A DNA stretch of 64,000 nt, taken from contig JAIVJS010000011.1 in assembly GCA_020199905.1 (NCBI GenBank), positions 1 to 64,000 of the forward strand, written 5' to 3'. This document shows positions 2,667 to 47,901 of this stretch, one piece after another. Below the pieces are notes generated by a model. The model was not told where the DNA came from. It saw only the letters and a program-made list of their open reading frames with translations, and made no database searches. Origin of the DNA: Acidobacteriota bacterium. GTDB taxonomy: Bacteria; Acidobacteriota; Thermoanaerobaculia; UBA5066; Gp7-AA6. The position numbers and the translations under genes were made by a program. Position 1 is the stretch's first letter. Each line of letters opens with the position of its first letter.

Positions 2667-3758
2667 GTGACGGCGAGGGAAGACCTTGCGACTCCCGCCG
2701 TCGTCATCGACCTGGCGGTTCTCGAGCGCAACATCGCGAGGATGGCGCAGGTGGCTGAGGCGGCGGGCGCGCGGCTCCGGCCTCACGCGAAGACGCACAA
2801 GTGCCCGGAGATCGGCCGGATGCAGATCGCGGCCGGCGCCTCGGGCCTGTCGCTCGCCAAGACGTCCGAGGCGGAGGTCTTCGTGGACGCCGGGTTCGAC
2901 GACATCTTCGTGGCGTACCCCGTCGTCGGGAAGGGAAAGCCGGAGCGGCTTCTGGCGCTCCACGACCGCTGCCGGCTGGCGGTCGGAGTCGACAGCGTCG
3001 CCGGCGCTCAGGCTCTCGGCGCGCCCTTCGCGGCCGCGGGCCGGACCCTCGATGTGCTGCTCAAGGTGGACTGCGGCCTGCACCGCGTGGGGGTCGCGCC
3101 CGAGGCGGCCGCCGGGATCGCCTCCCGCATCGCGGGTCTGCCCGGCCTCTCCCTCCGCGGCGTCTTCACCCACGCCGGCCACGCTTACCACGAGGTCTCC
3201 CCCGAAGGTGTCGCCTCGGTCGGCCGCGCCGAAGGCGTGACCCTCGCGGAGACCGCGGCCCGAATCCGCGAGGCGGGCCCTTCCGTTTCCGAAGTGTCGG
3301 TGGGATCAACGCCCTCCGCTCGATACGCGATCGGCGCCGCCGGGGTGACGGAGTGCCGCCCGGGAAACTACGTGTTCCACGACGCGTCGCAGGTCTCGCT
3401 GCGCACCGGAACGATCGAAGACTGCGCCATGACGATCGAGGCCACGGTCGTGAGCGTCCCCGCCGCCGACCGCGCGGTCGTGGACGCCGGCTCGAAGACC
3501 CTGTCCTCCGACGCTCTTCGGCCTCGCGCGGGCGGCCATGGGTTCCTGGTCGGGCGGACGAGCCGGATCGCGCGGCTTTCGGAGGAGCACGGGGTCATCG
3601 ACGTCGCCGCGGGCGAACGGTTTACCGTCGGCGAACGGGTCTCGATCGTCCCGAACCACGCGTGCGTCGTGACCAACCTCCACGATCGCATCCACGCCGT
3701 GCGCGACGGGAAGGTCGAAGCCGTGTGGCGGGTCGCGGCACGGGGGTGCGTGGAGTAG
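2667..3758 (+). CDS. D-threonine aldolase / D-serine dehydratase family PLP enzyme
   Basis: A 363-residue fold-type III (alanine-racemase-like) PLP enzyme. The N-terminal barrel carries RPHAKTHK near residues 38-45, whose first lysine (K42) is the expected PLP Schiff base. The C-terminal beta domain ends with PNHACVVTNLHD, the His-x-Cys metal site seen in metal-dependent D-threonine aldolases and DSD1-type D-serine dehydratases. The enzyme should therefore cleave or dehydrate a D-beta-hydroxy amino acid; sequence alone does not choose the substrate. The start is GTG 2667 behind a weak AAGGCGG; the codons before it have no family similarity. It stands alone, divergent from the M4 protease, and a heptad repeat array begins 13 nt after its stop. 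Confidence 0.87.
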   Translation: MTAREDLATPAVVIDLAVLERNIARMAQVAEAAGARLRPHAKTHKCPEIGRMQIAAGASGLSLAKTSEAEVFVDAGFDDIFVAYPVVGKGKPERLLALHDRCRLAVGVDSVAGAQALGAPFAAAGRTLDVLLKVDCGLHRVGVAPEAAAGIASRIAGLPGLSLRGVFTHAGHAYHEVSPEGVASVGRAEGVTLAETAARIREAGPSVSEVSVGSTPSARYAIGAAGVTECRPGNYVFHDASQVSLRTGTIEDCAMTIEATVVSVPAADRAVVDAGSKTLSSDALRPRAGGHGFLVGRTSRIARLSEEHGVIDVAAGERFTVGERVSIVPNHACVVTNLHDRIHAVRDGKVEAVWRVAARGCVE

Positions 3759-41454: not shown

Positions 41455-42088
41455 CCTCCCCACCTCTTCCACGCGACGCCCTCCCAGCCGAAGGAGAAGC
41501 GGTCCGGGTGGAAGATCTCGGCCAGGATCTCGAGGGTCTCGACCACACGGGGACCCGGCCGGTTGAAGAACTGATTGCCGTCGCAGAAAAAGACCGAGCC
41601 GTTCGCGACGGGGGCCAGGTCGTCAAAGCCGGGGGTCTCGCGGAGAAGGTCCGCCTCCGCTTCCGTCCGCGCGAGCGAAAACCCCAGGGGAAGACGACGA
41701 GCACGTCGGGATTCGCGCCGGCCAGCGCGTCCCGCGCAAGCCCAGGGCGAGTGCCGACCCGCCTGCCCGAAGATTCTCCCCGCCGGCCATTTCGACGAGC
41801 TCCGGGGTCGGCCATCGGCGGCGCCGGCCCCTCGATCGTGGCGGCACGCACCGCCGGGGCGCCGAAGCCGCACCGGACGTGATCCCGTTCATCCGCGCGG
41901 AGAGCACGCGCGTCAGCGAGACTCCCCGTCGCGGCGCGCCGTGAGCGGCGCCGTCAACACCGGCAGATCCTCGACCTCCGGCGGGAATCGCACTCGTGAG
42001 ACCGGCCGACCAGCGCGTCCGCGAAACCGAGCGCGGAGACGATCTCGGTCGCGGAAGGCAGAAGCGAGACGATGCGCGGAACGGTCAC
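41455..42088 (-). pseudogene. btuF: Decayed btuF-like cobalamin-binding protein gene
   Basis: Fragments of a BtuF-type cobalamin substrate-binding protein in three frames. GTG 42088 (4-nt overlap with the DUF71 gene) starts [15 protein letters not shown] and GRSHECD. A one-base loss near 41986 shifts to [14 protein letters not shown]. About 100 residues are then missing. The remainder alternates between frames: TIEGPAPPMADP, then PELVEMAGGENL, then AGANPDVLVVFPWGF, then FSLARTEAEADLL with NQFFNRPGPRVVETLEILAE and FSFGWEGVAW. No signal peptide remains, and the 3' end runs into a heptad array. Several indels plus a deletion rule out a single sequencing error. Its neighbours in the cobalamin operon are intact. 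Confidence 0.85.
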
Positions 42089-42777
42089 GCTTCCGGTGTC
42101 GAACCTTCAAGAAGGAGGTCCGCGAAGACGAACCCGTCGCGGGTCACGGTCTCGCCCCGCCGGAGCGGGAGCGGGGCTCCGAACATCGGGCCGTCCGTGG
42201 CGCACGTGTGGAACTCCCCATTCTCCCCGCACGGGTCGACGCTCGCGGGAAGGTCCGCCAGGAGCGAGACGTCCCATTCGCGCCCGGCCGTCCCGGCCGA
42301 GAGCCGCTCCGGGTCGACACACACGACGGTGGCGCGGAGACCCCCGTCGAGCATTTCGCGGGCGAGCCCTCCCGTGTCGCGGCCCCAGAGAGGAAAGACG
42401 GGGACGATTCCCGAGCCGGAGAGCAGACGCTCCCGGTACTCCCGGATGTCCTCGAGGAAGAGGTCTCCGAAAACGATCTGCTCGACACCGCCGTCTCGCG
42501 CCGCGGCGACGGCCGTCAGAAAGGCGTCTTCATAGTCCGCATTGGTGCACCCTGCCGGGATCCGCACCGGGATCGAAGGAAGACCGGTGCTCTCCGCCTG
42601 AGCCGCGAGCACCTCCTCGCGAACGCCGTGCATCGACACGCGGCCGTAGTCGATCGTCACCGTCGTCAGAAGCCCGACGACCTCGGCCGTTCCCCGGCGC
42701 CGCGTCTCGTAAAGCGCCCACGCGCTGTCTTTTCCGGAGCTCCAGGAAATCAGGGCGCCCGGCAGCCCGCGCGTCAC
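42085..42777 (-). CDS. DUF71/COG2102 PP-loop ATPase, cobalamin-associated subgroup
   Basis: A 230-residue cytoplasmic enzyme. The PP-loop [12 protein letters not shown] (about 11-22) binds ATP for adenylation, followed by [19 protein letters not shown] and [15 protein letters not shown], typical of the Dph6-like DUF71 family. Eukaryotic and archaeal members amidate diphthine. Bacterial members near cobalamin genes have been predicted by published comparative genomics to act in B12 salvage. Here the gene overlaps the adenosyltransferase gene by 4 nt and sits behind a cobalamin riboswitch, which fits the second role. The substrate is not known. Confidence 0.85.
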
Positions 42778-43337
42778 GCCCGGCTGTCCCAGAGGACGTC
42801 TGGCTTTCCTTTGCGCGCGTTCTCGGCGCGCGCGAGAACGAAGAGAGCGTCTGACAGGCGGTTCAGGTACCGAACCGTCTCGGCCCCGACGGGCTCGCTG
42901 CGCGACAGCGCGAGGACCAGCCGCTCGGCGCGGCGGCAGATGGTGCGCGCCAGATGCAGGTGCGCCGCTCCCGGCGACCCGCCCGGAAGAACGAAATTGT
43001 CGAGCGGCGGGATCGACTCCGAAAGCCGGTCCATCAACGACTCGAGCGCGATGATGTGCCGCTCCTCGATCCGCGGCACGGGCCGGCGCTCTTTGGCTTC
43101 TTCCCGGACGCAGAGGTCGGCCCCGAGGTGGAACAGCTCGTTCTGGACCGATCGCAGCGGAGCCGACACCTCGGGGTCGAGACCGGCGGCGAGCGCGACG
43201 CCGATCGCGCTGTTCAGCTCATCGACCGTCCCATATGCCGCGATCCGAGGCGAGTCCTTCGGGACGCGGTCTCCGTCCCCGAGCGATGTCGTCCCGTCGT
43301 CCCCCGTGCGCGTGTAGACGCGTGTGATCCTCGGCAT
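42774..43337 (-). CDS. pduO: PduO-type cob(I)alamin adenosyltransferase
   Basis: A 187-residue enzyme that transfers adenosine from ATP to reduced cobalamin, completing B12 activation. [14 protein letters not shown] (about 10-23) is the N-terminal ATP-binding signature. [14 protein letters not shown], preceded by [16 protein letters not shown], forms the second nucleotide and cobalamin region, and [14 protein letters not shown] closes the fold. Length and motifs match the family. ATG 43337 has GGACGGAAAG upstream. It follows the BtuB fusion by 40 nt and overlaps the DUF71 gene. Confidence 0.95.
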
Positions 43338-43376: not shown

Positions 43377-45689
43377 CTAGAATCGCACCTCGAGACCTCC
43401 GGCCCATCGGCGTCCGGGCGCGGGGTATCCGTCGACCTCCGCGTACGCCCTGTCGGCGAGATTCTCCATCCGCACATAGGGCGCGAACAGCCCGGCGCGA
43501 TACCGCGCGAAGAAGTCGATCCGCACGTATCCTGGATCTCGGACCCGCTCCCGGGTGAGCGCGTCGAAGTCGGCGCGCGGACCGACGAGCGCCGCGCGCG
43601 GCGACAGATCGAGACCGGGAAGGGGCTCGATCGTGAGGCCGACCGACGCGGAGTTGCGCGCCCTCCGGATCAACGGGAGCCCGGTCTCGCGATCGCGAGC
43701 GTCGAGGTACCGATAGCTCGCGTCCGCCGCCAGCCCCGAGGTCAGAGGCTGCCGCCACGCGATCTCCAGGCCTCGAGTCCGCGCGCGCCCCACGTTGAAG
43801 TTCTGAAATCGCGAAAAGTCGTACACGATCAGGTGGCGGAAGTCGTTCCAGAACAGGGAGAGCTCGACGCGGCCGGAACCGGCCTGGCTCTCGACTCCCG
43901 CGTCGAACGAGGTGGACCGCTCGGGCTGCAGGGCCGGATTGCCCGAGAAGGGGTAATACAGCTCGCCGACCGACGGCGCCCGAAATCCGGTGCCGGCGGA
44001 GGCGCGCAGCTTCCAGCCGCCGGCGCGCCAGGCCATCGTCGCGCGCGGGCTCCAGGCGGCGCCGTACTGGGAGTGGCGGTCGTAGCGCAGCCCGGCGGTC
44101 ACGATCGCCGCGCCGAGCCGAACCGAGTCTTCCGCGCCGACGTGCCACAGCGTCGCGCGTGCTCCGTCCAGGTTCGAGCCGAAGTTCGAGGCATCGTCTA
44201 CGGTCCAGCGTTCCCAGCCCCCGAATCCCGTCACCGTATGAGCGCCCGCGACGAAACTGTCGGAGACGCGCCCCTGAAGCGTCCGGGCATCCGTGTCGGA
44301 ATGAAAACCCGGCGTGTCGTACGAGGGACGCGACGAGGCGAAACCGAGCACGACGGCGGCGGTGTGCCCCTCCGCCGGGTGGAAGGTTGCGGGAAGCGAG
44401 ATGCGTTCCTCCCTCGGGTGATAGCGATCCCGGGGAGACTCCGCTCCGACGGGCCCGGGGAGGCCCAGCTCTCCGTCCGAGATGGCGCCCTCGAGCGCGA
44501 CGTGAAGGCCGTCAGAGAAACGGCCCTCGAGACGCACGGAGCCGGACCGTTCGCGCCAGTCGTCGTTGGCCCGGTCGCCGTCGGAGCGATGGTCCCGAAA
44601 ACTCGCCGCGACGCCCCAGGGACCGGTCCCGCCCGTGGCAAACGCGGTCTCCTCGCGCAGCCGCGCGTTACCGGTTTCGGCGGAGACGCGCCCGGAGAGC
44701 TTTCCGGAGGCGGGGCGCGTGAAGATCTGGATGACGCCGCCGAGCGCGTCGGAACCGTACAGCGCGGAGAACGGGCCGCGGACGATTTCGATCCGGTCGA
44801 CGTTCTCGGTGCTCTGAAGCGCGAAGTCGTACCCCGGGAAAAACGGAGAGTTGACGCGCACACCGTCGACGAGCACGAGCGCGTGCGTCGAGTTGGATCC
44901 CCGCAGAAAGACGGACGTCTGCGAGCCCGGACCGCCGGAGCCCAGAACGTCGACCCCCGGGACCGATCGCAGAGCGTCGGAAACCGTCCTCCAGCCGTTG
45001 CGCTCGATGTCTTCGCGGAGGACGACCGTCGCCGCCGTGCCCAGGTCCTCGCGCTCCTCCGGAGCGGCCGTCGCGGTCACGACGACCGCTTCGGAAACGG
45101 GCGCGGGCACCGGTCCCGCGGGCTGCCCGATCGCATGCCCGCTGACGAACACCAGCCCGAGCGACAGCACGGCCGCGGTCCTCACGGCGCGCACCGCGCC
45201 GCGCCGCGAGAGCGCGTCGAGGCCGAAGAGCATGGCGGTCCCCGCCAGATCCGCCAGAAGCGTGTTCCAGAACCAGGGGATGGCCGCGATGTAGCAGAGC
45301 GCGAGACCGGCAAGGGTCCTGGGGTACGTGTCGAACTGGAGCCAGTTGGCGAAGTTCGTCGCCAGGAAGAAGAAGACCGCGGACCCTCCCGCCAGAGCCG
45401 CGAGCCGCAACGGCCCGGCCGCGGAAGCCGCCAGGCGCCCCGCGAGAACGGTGAGAAGGAAGCAGCCGTACACGGCGGCGCGGATCGGCGTGATCGCTTC
45501 GCGCCCGGTCCCGAGATCCAGAACGAGGTCCGAGAGCGCGAGCGCGAGAACGGGGACCACGAAGGCGAGGCCGCGGGGAAGGCGGGCCCCCGCGTAGAGG
45601 GCGATGGCTCCGAGAGCCACGGCGTTCGGTGGATGCGGGAGAAGCCGGGACAGGGCGCCGAGTAAGGTGAGCAGGACCGCGATCGTCAT
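43377..45689 (-). CDS. btuB: Fusion: DUF6580 membrane domain + BtuB-like TonB-dependent cobalamin receptor
   Basis: A 770-residue open frame with two parts. Residues 1-160 are a DUF6580-type inner-membrane protein (SRLLPHPPNAVALGAIALYAGA, SDLVLDLG, TNFANWLQFDTYPRTLAGLA), about five or six helices. Without a stop, residues 166-189 read as a signal peptide (VRTAAVLSLGLVFVSGHAIG). A TonB-box-like SEAVVVTAT, a plug (about 213-320, VFLRGSNSTHALVLVDGVRV) and a 22-strand-type barrel ending in VRF follow. GGGAGG precedes ATG 45689 and no stop lies between the parts. GTG 45185 could start a normal receptor, but it has no ribosome binding site. The cobalamin riboswitch and the adenosyltransferase gene support cobalamin as substrate. 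Confidence 0.86.
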   Translation of the reverse strand: MTIAVLLTLLGALSRLLPHPPNAVALGAIALYAGARLPRGLAFVVPVLALALSDLVLDLGTGREAITPIRAAVYGCFLLTVLAGRLAASAAGPLRLAALAGGSAVFFFLATNFANWLQFDTYPRTLAGLALCYIAAIPWFWNTLLADLAGTAMLFGLDALSRRGAVRAVRTAAVLSLGLVFVSGHAIGQPAGPVPAPVSEAVVVTATAAPEEREDLGTAATVVLREDIERNGWRTVSDALRSVPGVDVLGSGGPGSQTSVFLRGSNSTHALVLVDGVRVNSPFFPGYDFALQSTENVDRIEIVRGPFSALYGSDALGGVIQIFTRPASGKLSGRVSAETGNARLREETAFATGGTGPWGVAASFRDHRSDGDRANDDWRERSGSVRLEGRFSDGLHVALEGAISDGELGLPGPVGAESPRDRYHPREERISLPATFHPAEGHTAAVVLGFASSRPSYDTPGFHSDTDARTLQGRVSDSFVAGAHTVTGFGGWERWTVDDASNFGSNLDGARATLWHVGAEDSVRLGAAIVTAGLRYDRHSQYGAAWSPRATMAWRAGGWKLRASAGTGFRAPSVGELYYPFSGNPALQPERSTSFDAGVESQAGSGRVELSLFWNDFRHLIVYDFSRFQNFNVGRARTRGLEIAWRQPLTSGLAADASYRYLDARDRETGLPLIRRARNSASVGLTIEPLPGLDLSPRAALVGPRADFDALTRERVRDPGYVRIDFFARYRAGLFAPYVRMENLADRAYAEVDGYPAPGRRWAGGLEVRF

Positions 45690-45797
45690 TCGAACCTCCC
45701 GTTCGACGAGACGAAGATCCCGATCGAGAGAGAGAGGTCCGCGGCCTGCGCGAATTCGAAGGCAGCGCCTCTCCGGTTCCCCGACCGAGAAGTGCGT

Positions 45798-45990
45798 CCG
45801 TCCGGCAGGTCTCCTGACTTCCGGATCCTCCGCCTTCGGGCTCCTTCCCGAACGCGCGACCGATTGCTCGATCACTCGCGCCCAGTGGTTCGTGCCCGGG
45901 GCGTCCCCGGTAACAGTGGCGGGGGCCGCGCGGGAGTTTCACCCGCTTCCCTTATGACCCGGCTCTGTTCGAGGCCCGGGTCAACGCCAG
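45798..45990 (-). ncRNA. Cobalamin riboswitch
   Basis: On the minus strand the conserved B12 box, AAGTCAGGAGACCTGCC, lies at about 45804-45820. Upstream are GGGAAGCGGGTGAAACTCCC and CCGCCACTGT, the other conserved core elements of the adenosylcobalamin aptamer, in the right order. The aptamer ends about 110 nt before the ATG of the BtuB fusion, whose strong ribosome binding site can be masked. It should switch off the operon when cobalamin is abundant. Confidence 0.95.
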
Positions 45991-46016
45991 ACGGATTCAA
46001 AGATCTCGAGTGCGGG

Positions 46017-46060: not shown

Positions 46061-46116
46061 GTCGTCAGTTTTCAGTCGTCCGTGGACGCCTCGAGCCATC
46101 CGGTCGACTGAGAACT
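46061..46116. repeat. Degenerate heptad array
   Basis: GTNNTCA/GTCGTCC-type units at 46061-46081 and a GACTGAG/AACTACT pair at the right end, which overlaps the stop codon (46115-46117) of the DHS-like gene. Confidence 0.55.
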
Positions 46117-47236
46117 ACTTGATCCGCTTCACCTTTCGGAGGATGTCGCCGTCCCAGTCGTGCGCCAGCCGCGTCCGGTCCTTTGCGGCGCCCTTCTGGA
46201 GCGCGTATCCATACAGCATCGGAAGGGCGACAGACGTCTCGATGAACGCCATCTCGTGGGTCGCCTGCTTGGAGACCTTGCCCCACGACGTCGCCTCGGA
46301 CAGGGTCGACCCTCCAAGTCCGCCCCAGTGCGGCGCGTCGGTCGTGATCTGAAGCGCGTACTTGTGGCCGCCGGTGTCGATCCCGAAGATGTAGGACATC
46401 ACGATCGAGTCGTTGATGTAGTTCTTCGGCACGCCTCCGGACACGTAGATCGCGGCCGTCGCGGAGCTCTGGACGACGATCTGCGTGAGCTCGTAGTTGT
46501 CGCGGATCGAGGAGATCGTGAAAGGCTCCTTTCCCGCTTTCCGCGCGCGGTGGTAGTGCTCTGTCAATCCGATCCCGATCGAGGAGTCGTTCAAGGCGGG
46601 CACGAAGAGCGGTACCCCGCGGCGCGCGCACGCGCCGAGGATCGAGCCCGCGTCGCCCCGCGCCCGCTCGGCGAGCAGCGCGAGGAAGGCGCGAGAGGAC
46701 AGAGAGCGGGGTGCGAGCGAATCGGCAAACTTCGAGACCGCAAGATCGGTCTCCCAGTATTTTTCCTCGTCGATGAAGGTGTCGTAGAGGCGGTCGATGT
46801 AGAGGTCTCGCAGCTCCTTGTCGTCCGCGTCGGGGCTGCCGTGGTAATGGCGCCCGCCCCGCACCTGGTAGTAGTCCTGCGAAATGATCGCGCCGGTCGA
46901 GACGAGTACGTCGACCATGTTGTTTTCGATCAGGTCGACGATCACCTGACGCATCCCCGCGGCGATCAGGGACCCGGCGAGCCCGAGGAAGATGGTCGGC
47001 CGCTGCCGGTCGCGAAGCATGCCCTCGAACACCGCCGCGCACTTGCCGAGGGCCCGCGCCTGGAACGAAGCGTTGCGGTAGGAGTCGAGCAGTTCCGAGA
47101 CGGTGGTTTTTTCGGTCAGCCGGACCGGCGTCGTCGGACGGCCGAGGAGCGCTTTCTTGCGCTTCCGGTCGACTCCGACCGCGGCTTCGTGCGTGTACTC
47201 GCGGGCGCTCGCCGCGGCTCTTTTTTTCGATCCCAT
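46115..47236 (-). CDS. Deoxyhypusine-synthase family protein
   Basis: A 373-residue member of the deoxyhypusine synthase family, which transfers the aminobutyl group of spermidine using NAD. VLVSTGAIISQDYY and YVSGGVPKNYINDS are NAD and substrate blocks. LSEATSWGKVSKQATHE holds the catalytic lysine, K320. Bacteria lack eIF5A, and bacterial homologues have been linked to homospermidine or other polyamine transfers; the actual acceptor here is unknown. ATG 47236 starts inside the larB gene (121-bp overlap in another frame). The conserved fold begins near residue 40, so a later start cannot be excluded. Confidence 0.88.
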   Translation of the reverse strand: MGSKKRAAASAREYTHEAAVGVDRKRKKALLGRPTTPVRLTEKTTVSELLDSYRNASFQARALGKCAAVFEGMLRDRQRPTIFLGLAGSLIAAGMRQVIVDLIENNMVDVLVSTGAIISQDYYQVRGGRHYHGSPDADDKELRDLYIDRLYDTFIDEEKYWETDLAVSKFADSLAPRSLSSRAFLALLAERARGDAGSILGACARRGVPLFVPALNDSSIGIGLTEHYHRARKAGKEPFTISSIRDNYELTQIVVQSSATAAIYVSGGVPKNYINDSIVMSYIFGIDTGGHKYALQITTDAPHWGGLGGSTLSEATSWGKVSKQATHEMAFIETSVALPMLYGYALQKGAAKDRTRLAHDWDGDILRKVKRIK

Positions 47237-47901
47237 CGACGCGGACCTCCGGAAAGAATTCGGTACGCGGCCATCGCGGCCCCGTAACCGGAGTCAATGT
47301 TCACCGCCGTGACGCCGTTCGCGCACGAGTTCACGGCCGAAAGGAGCGCTGCGAGACCTCCGAAGGCGGCGCCGTAGCCGCGCGCCGTGGGGACCGCGAT
47401 CAAGGGCCGCCCGACGAGACCCGCGATCACCGAGAAGAGCGACGCCTCCATGCCCGCGACCGCGATGACGACGTCGGCGCGCTCGATCTCCTCGAGTCTC
47501 GAGAGAAGGCGCAGGAGCCCGGCGACTCCGACATCGGGGACGATCCCCGATGTCACGCCGAGGTACTCGAGCGTCTTGCGCGCCTCCTCCGCGGCGTCCA
47601 TGTCCATCGTTCCGGCGGTGACGATGCAGACCGTCCCCTCGACCCGCGGCATCGGTTTGCCGACGGAGAGATGGAGGGTGCGCGAGCGAGGGTCGTAGTC
47701 GGCGCGGCCCGGAAGCGGCGATGAGCCCGCGACCTCTTCCCACGCCTCGGGCGAAAGGCGCGTCACGAGGACATCGTGAGCGCGGGCGAGCTGGCGGCAG
47801 ATCTCGGCGATCTGAACCACGGACTTCCCGTCCGCGAGCACGACCTCGGGAAAGCCGACGCGCCGCAGTCGGTCGAAGTCGAGCGTGTAGTCCGCGGTCA
47901 C
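47116..47901 (-). CDS. larB: LarB-like carboxylase of nickel-pincer cofactor biosynthesis
   Basis: A 261-residue protein with a PurE-like C-terminal domain. LarB carboxylates and hydrolyses nicotinic acid adenine dinucleotide in the synthesis of the nickel-pincer nucleotide. Typical blocks are FPEVVLADGKS, VTAGTMDMDAAEEARKT, PDVGVAGLLRLL, VIAVAGMEASLFSV and NSCANGVTAVNIDSGYGAA. The last 35 residues are an Arg/Lys/Ser-rich tail read out of frame through the start of the DHS-like gene. The GTG at 47901 has no Shine-Dalgarno; TAAGAT (47908-47913) is 6 nt upstream, suggesting a leaderless message. No larC, larE or lactate racemase gene is visible. Confidence 0.87.
   Translation of the reverse strand: MTADYTLDFDRLRRVGFPEVVLADGKSVVQIAEICRQLARAHDVLVTRLSPEAWEEVAGSSPLPGRADYDPRSRTLHLSVGKPMPRVEGTVCIVTAGTMDMDAAEEARKTLEYLGVTSGIVPDVGVAGLLRLLSRLEEIERADVVIAVAGMEASLFSVIAGLVGRPLIAVPTARGYGAAFGGLAALLSAVNSCANGVTAVNIDSGYGAAMAAYRILSGGPRRWDRKKEPRRAPASTRTKPRSESTGSARKRSSAVRRRRSG

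Follow-up and report, generated by a model that had tools for sequence, protein, structure and literature searches.

We describe a gene in which an inner-membrane domain of the DUF6580 family is joined in frame to a complete BtuB-type TonB receptor, and which probably encodes a single precursor that signal peptidase I would cut to give a BtuM-like protein for the inner membrane and a BtuB-like mature receptor. The gene lies in the window, by which we mean the whole stretch of 64,000 nucleotides that was analysed; the genome of the window, which is that of a soil Acidobacteriota, is referred to as G000, and the relatives that carry the same fusion as G002, G006 and G404. The frame runs on the minus strand from an ATG at 45689 to a stop codon at 43377, is free of stops throughout and encodes 770 amino acids, with the six-helix DUF6580 domain followed by a predicted internal signal peptide and the receptor. 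The features of the locus are listed here in the direction of transcription.

45787-46006, minus strand: cobalamin riboswitch aptamer, upstream of the fused gene (Rfam RF00174, 101.7 bits, E 2.6e-24)
45695-45700, minus strand: Shine-Dalgarno sequence GGGAGG, within the short palindrome TCGAAC-GGGAG-GTTCGA
45204-45689, minus strand: DUF6580, residues 1-162 (PF20221, AF2 model, best PDB match BtuM, charge pattern)
45126-45206, minus strand: predicted internal signal peptide, residues about 162-188 (anatomy the same in four fusions; modelled helix)
45051-45092, minus strand: TonB box region EAVVVTATAAPEER, residues 200-213 (alignment with E. coli BtuB 1nqf)
44733-45050, minus strand: plug, residues 214-319 (PF07715, E 1.4e-28)
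43380-44732, minus strand: TonB-dependent beta-barrel, residues 320-770, complete to the C-terminal F (PF00593)
42774-43337, minus strand: PduO-type cob(I)alamin adenosyltransferase, the next gene downstream (TIGR00636, 205 bits, over cut-off; PF01923, E 5e-62)
42085-42777, minus strand: ATP-pyrophosphatase (Dph6-like), overlapping the end of the adenosyltransferase gene (PF01902, E 4e-25)

The Pfam matches of DUF6580, the plug and the barrel each score above the curated cut-off. DUF6580 is matched over residues 3-162 (E 5e-37, 128 bits, family cut-off 27) and the barrel over residues 361-733 (E 1.4e-46). The first start codon is preceded by GGGAGG, which pairs with the anti-Shine-Dalgarno sequence at -10.9 kcal/mol. 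We found the same fusion in G002 and G006, which belong to the window's order along with G000, and in G404, from another class of the phylum; in these three assemblies the sequence is 43-68% identical. A sequencing artefact or a missed stop codon can be ruled out, as the fusion is common to four separate assemblies. The preliminary description, which had reported an in-frame fusion of DUF6580 to BtuB behind one good ribosome binding site, is borne out on both points.

We assessed the anatomy of the joint from hydropathy and the -3,-1 rule. The joint of G000 consists of an n-region (RRGAVRAVR), an h-region (TAAVLSLGLVFVS) and a c-region (GHAIG), with the cut predicted at AIG/Q (188/189). All four joints present basic residues, then a hydrophobic stretch, then a signal peptidase site before Gln; the sites of the relatives are ASA/Q (G002), SRA/Q (G006) and ARA/Q (G404), compared with which that of G000 is less canonical. 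The TonB box lies 6-11 residues past the predicted cut in the four fusions, a spacing that in three of them is within two residues of that in mature E. coli BtuB. Residues E200 and V202-V204 are invariant across the four, and E200 of G000 corresponds in the alignment to residue 6 of mature E. coli BtuB (1nqf). In a whole-chain model (mean pLDDT 88.1) the helices of DUF6580 are followed by another helix (167-182), a stretch of low confidence (183-209) and then the plug and the barrel. A signal-peptide-like segment had already been noted at 166-189; the segment is present, but the joint anatomy and the model place it a few residues earlier, at 162-188.

Loops 2 and 4 and the C-terminal end of DUF6580 are rich in Lys/Arg, and loops 1, 3 and 5 are poorer. 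This distribution predicts an N-in/C-in domain with both ends in the cytoplasm, and a C-in topology is what a following signal peptide needs, since it must begin in the cytoplasm. The elements of a precursor with an internal signal peptide are all found in this gene, namely an unbroken frame, a predicted C-in membrane domain, a signal peptide and an exported domain.

We propose that the cobalamin riboswitch and the one ribosome site would govern synthesis of the precursor. DUF6580, with its six-helix, BtuM/S-component-like fold, would be made first and would insert in the inner membrane with both ends cytoplasmic. The former N-terminal signal peptide of the receptor, now internal, would start in the cytoplasm, span the membrane and pass the remaining chain to the periplasm. 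Cleavage by signal peptidase I, after AxG/AxA and before Gln, would then leave one extra helix on the inner-membrane product and free a BtuB receptor that has its TonB box and the N-terminus of a normal mature receptor and that would go on to the outer membrane. The DUF6580 half would probably deal with corrinoids, by import or by processing, like BtuM. The preliminary description had offered two alternatives, a chain cut by signal peptidase, giving equimolar products, and a hidden start within the joint. The sequences favour the first, under which the two products would presumably be made in equal amounts.

The Bradyrhizobium fbcH gene for cytochrome b/c1 encodes a precursor that is cut at an internal signal sequence. 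Here, as in fbcH, an internal signal sequence, cleaved in fbcH and predicted to be cleaved here, connects a multi-helix inner-membrane protein to an exported one; however, both fbcH products remain in one inner-membrane complex, whereas one of the present products would be bound for the outer membrane. The earlier statement that no characterised example was known needs qualifying, as fbcH is the nearest characterised mechanism. The principle of an internally cut precursor is not wholly new; the novelty would lie in sending its two products to different membranes. If the proposal is true, a signal peptide that lies inside a chain, after a multi-helix membrane protein, can serve to deliver an outer-membrane protein, and one precursor is able to supply both membranes.

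A different reading, which we regard as unlikely, is that DUF6580 merely precedes the receptor as a passenger in a decaying fusion and has lost its own function. The fusion is indeed patchy, with DUF6580 missing from G001 and G004, which are of the same genus as the fused G006; BtuFCD-type genes are present elsewhere, and the neighbouring BtuF-like frame is broken. Nevertheless, the domain retains R15, P18, H19, N22, D54, W116, C132, Y133 and P138, which are near-invariant in the family, and its substitutions between G000 and G002 fit a protein under selection, with a rate of 0.20 at codon position 2 and 0.52 at position 3.

Translation could also begin within the joint, at GTG 45185 (codon 169), as the preliminary description had suggested, or at ATG 45233 (codon 153), yielding a separate receptor with an N-terminal signal peptide. 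In-frame ATG or GTG codons are present in all four joints; codon 153, the better of the two candidates for the window, is ATG or GTG in three of the four fusions and is preceded by GCGGGGAC in G000 and G002. However, no start codon is common to the four. Codon 153 is ATT in G006; codon 169 is GTC in G002, with no ATG, GTG or TTG at the matching place in G006 and G404. The candidate ribosome sites are ordinary, at -5.7 for codon 153 and -4.0 for codon 169 compared with -10.9 for the true start, and over the fusions the values range from -10.3 to -10.9 kcal/mol at the first start and from +1.0 to -5.9 at the joint. A locus from Ignavibacteriales (L118, 4938-7505) shows the order of the fusions in unfused form, with DUF6580 and then the receptor adjacent in the same frame and a cobalamin riboswitch in front. 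Its two genes are separated by one stop codon, a GGGAGG and an ATG, none of which the fusions have at this place. Even if an internal start were used, the full-length chain would still be produced. The start at GTG 45185, with its weak ribosome site and a codon not conserved in G002, G006 and G404, is accordingly not upheld, and internal initiation as a whole appears improbable.

That the chain stays uncut, so that the receptor and the inner-membrane domain form one tethered unit across the envelope, would fit the single open frame and a cleavage site in G000 that is not the strongest, but is very hard to credit because only about 30 residues (184-213) lie between the membrane helix and the plug, near 100 Å when fully stretched in a periplasm about 200 Å wide, and because the relatives carry canonical AxA/Q-type sites.

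The receptor released by the proposed cleavage is like E. coli BtuB in its plug, barrel, TonB box position, predicted structure and cobalamin riboswitch control, and E. coli BtuB (1nqe) is the best PDB match of the whole-chain model, with a TM of 0.91 on the target. It is unlike E. coli BtuB in that its signal peptide is internal, behind a 162-residue inner-membrane domain, and its identity is 25%. Against the TIGR01779 B12 equivalog it scores 273.2 bits, under the cut-off of 599.7, and for this reason its predicted B12 specificity rests on the riboswitch, the neighbours and the fold.

The locus is assigned to vitamin B12 handling because the riboswitch lies upstream and the PduO-type adenosyltransferase gene downstream; the riboswitch at 46006-45787 is an addition to the preliminary description. 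An intact BtuF-BtuC-BtuD cluster was found on another contig of G000, with no riboswitch match there. The remains of a BtuF-like binding protein gene are seen in the window at 42085-41460 (minus strand), where the frame is broken and later pieces are in other frames; no piece of these remains has a Pfam match.

The AF2 model of DUF6580, built from a 69-row alignment, is confident (pLDDT 95.8) and has six membrane helices. In the PDB it is matched best by two cobalamin-bound BtuM structures (8c7p and 8ovv, TM 0.66-0.68), with a Foldseek probability of 1.0 and E-values of only 0.025-0.03, and next by the S components PanT 4rfs and ThiT 3rlb (TM about 0.5). In a sequence search with E-values up to 10, a DUF6580 profile of 69 sequences matched no chain in the PDB, not even those of BtuM. 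The B12 transporter BtuM of Thiobacillus denitrificans is solitary and S-component-like, and a cysteine in its loop 3 is essential (PMC6072759). DUF6580 is like BtuM in its predicted six-helix S-component fold, its occurrence with btuB and a genome without an ECF module; it is unlike BtuM in having no sequence match to it, and BtuM is a separate gene. Furthermore, the cobalt-binding Cys80 of BtuM is in loop 3, whereas the near-invariant Cys132 of DUF6580 comes after helix 5 (loop 3 is 59-67), and the near-invariant His19 is also outside loop 3. The model thus suggests a BtuM-like fold, which does not establish the identity of DUF6580 as a BtuM.

ECF S components work with EcfAAT, whereas the EcfT family is missing from 48 of 50 DUF6580 genomes, and neither G000 nor any of its three fused relatives gave a CbiQ/EcfT match. 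A strong FecCD permease is absent from about 36 of the 50; G029, a genome 99% complete, has the riboswitch, btuB and DUF6580 and no FecCD or CbiQ match. A FecCD (BtuC-type) permease is encoded in all four fused genomes, and in G000 and G404, where its surroundings were read, BtuF- and BtuD-type genes lie next to it. DUF6580 therefore need not be the B12 importer. Given these BtuC-type ABC importer genes, the inner-membrane half may be redundant in the fused genomes, or it may serve as a second route or a corrinoid-processing step; B12 would be its presumed ligand. Our search of the literature returned no paper mentioning DUF6580. The fusion, riboswitch, gene order and fold tie this family of unknown function to vitamin B12 handling.

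Of 80 named DUF6580 loci taken bacteria-wide, two are fusions; in 20 a separate receptor gene immediately precedes DUF6580 on the same strand, and in three the two genes are also separate but DUF6580 precedes the receptor. At four loci the receptor is encoded on the opposite strand, and at 51 no receptor occurs within 1.5 kb. DUF6580 usually follows the receptor, whereas in the fusions it comes first. Seven of the 20 receptor-then-DUF6580 loci were scanned, and a cobalamin riboswitch precedes the receptor in six; the seventh locus starts inside the receptor.

Within the window's order the receptor is present in all 19 genomes and DUF6580 in three (G000, G002 and G006), in each of which it is fused to the receptor. 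A cobalamin riboswitch lies upstream of the fused gene in all four fused genomes, and likewise upstream of the receptor in each of the eight unfused genomes of the order examined, which lack DUF6580 and show an ordinary N-terminal signal peptide. The close unfused relatives have no DUF6580 at the locus, rather than two separate genes set apart by a base difference or by a stop between the halves. Because the Shine-Dalgarno context of the fused gene is common to the fused relatives and the unfused G001 and G004, an in-frame insertion of DUF6580 seems to have separated the signal peptide of the receptor from its ribosome site. The receptor gene of G001 (L128, just downstream of a riboswitch at 3419-3612, minus strand) has the ribosome site and first codons of the fused gene, with DUF6580 absent: its start is that of the fused G002 (CGAACGGGAGGTTCGAATGACGACCGCG) with the first hydrophobic codons, followed directly by the end of the signal peptide and the receptor. 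From its sequence, G001 apparently carries an in-frame deletion scar of DUF6580 from a fused ancestor.

A single clean origin was suggested by a first receptor tree, which had the four fusions as one clade, but was rejected on adding the unfused orthologs of the order (AU test p 2.7e-73). The DUF6580 parts of the fusions cluster with three unfused Planctomycetota copies in the domain tree. Receptor and domain trees require at least two to three changes, and gain, loss and horizontal transfer are therefore all in play; one old fusion with losses and horizontal transfer, or more than one gain, could account for these sequences. A 1032-aa frame of G158 was considered as a further fusion and set aside, having DUF6580 at its end and no receptor match in the part read. 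No viral contig encodes a relative. The fused frame of G404 changes within the barrel (L043, 3609-3786), through either an assembly error or decay.

The ribosome site of the fused gene sits in the loop of its palindrome (window 45710-45687, minus strand), the arms of which are altered yet still pairing in G004 (CGAAAC/GTTTCG) and in G003 and G018 (GGAAC/GTTCC). This palindrome is a possible riboswitch expression platform; RNA folding of the fused-gene leader gave nothing beyond shuffles. Upstream of the fused gene are deoxyhypusine-synthase-like and AIR-carboxylase-domain genes (window 46115-47236 and 47116-47901, minus strand), and an AIRC-like gene is likewise upstream in G002.
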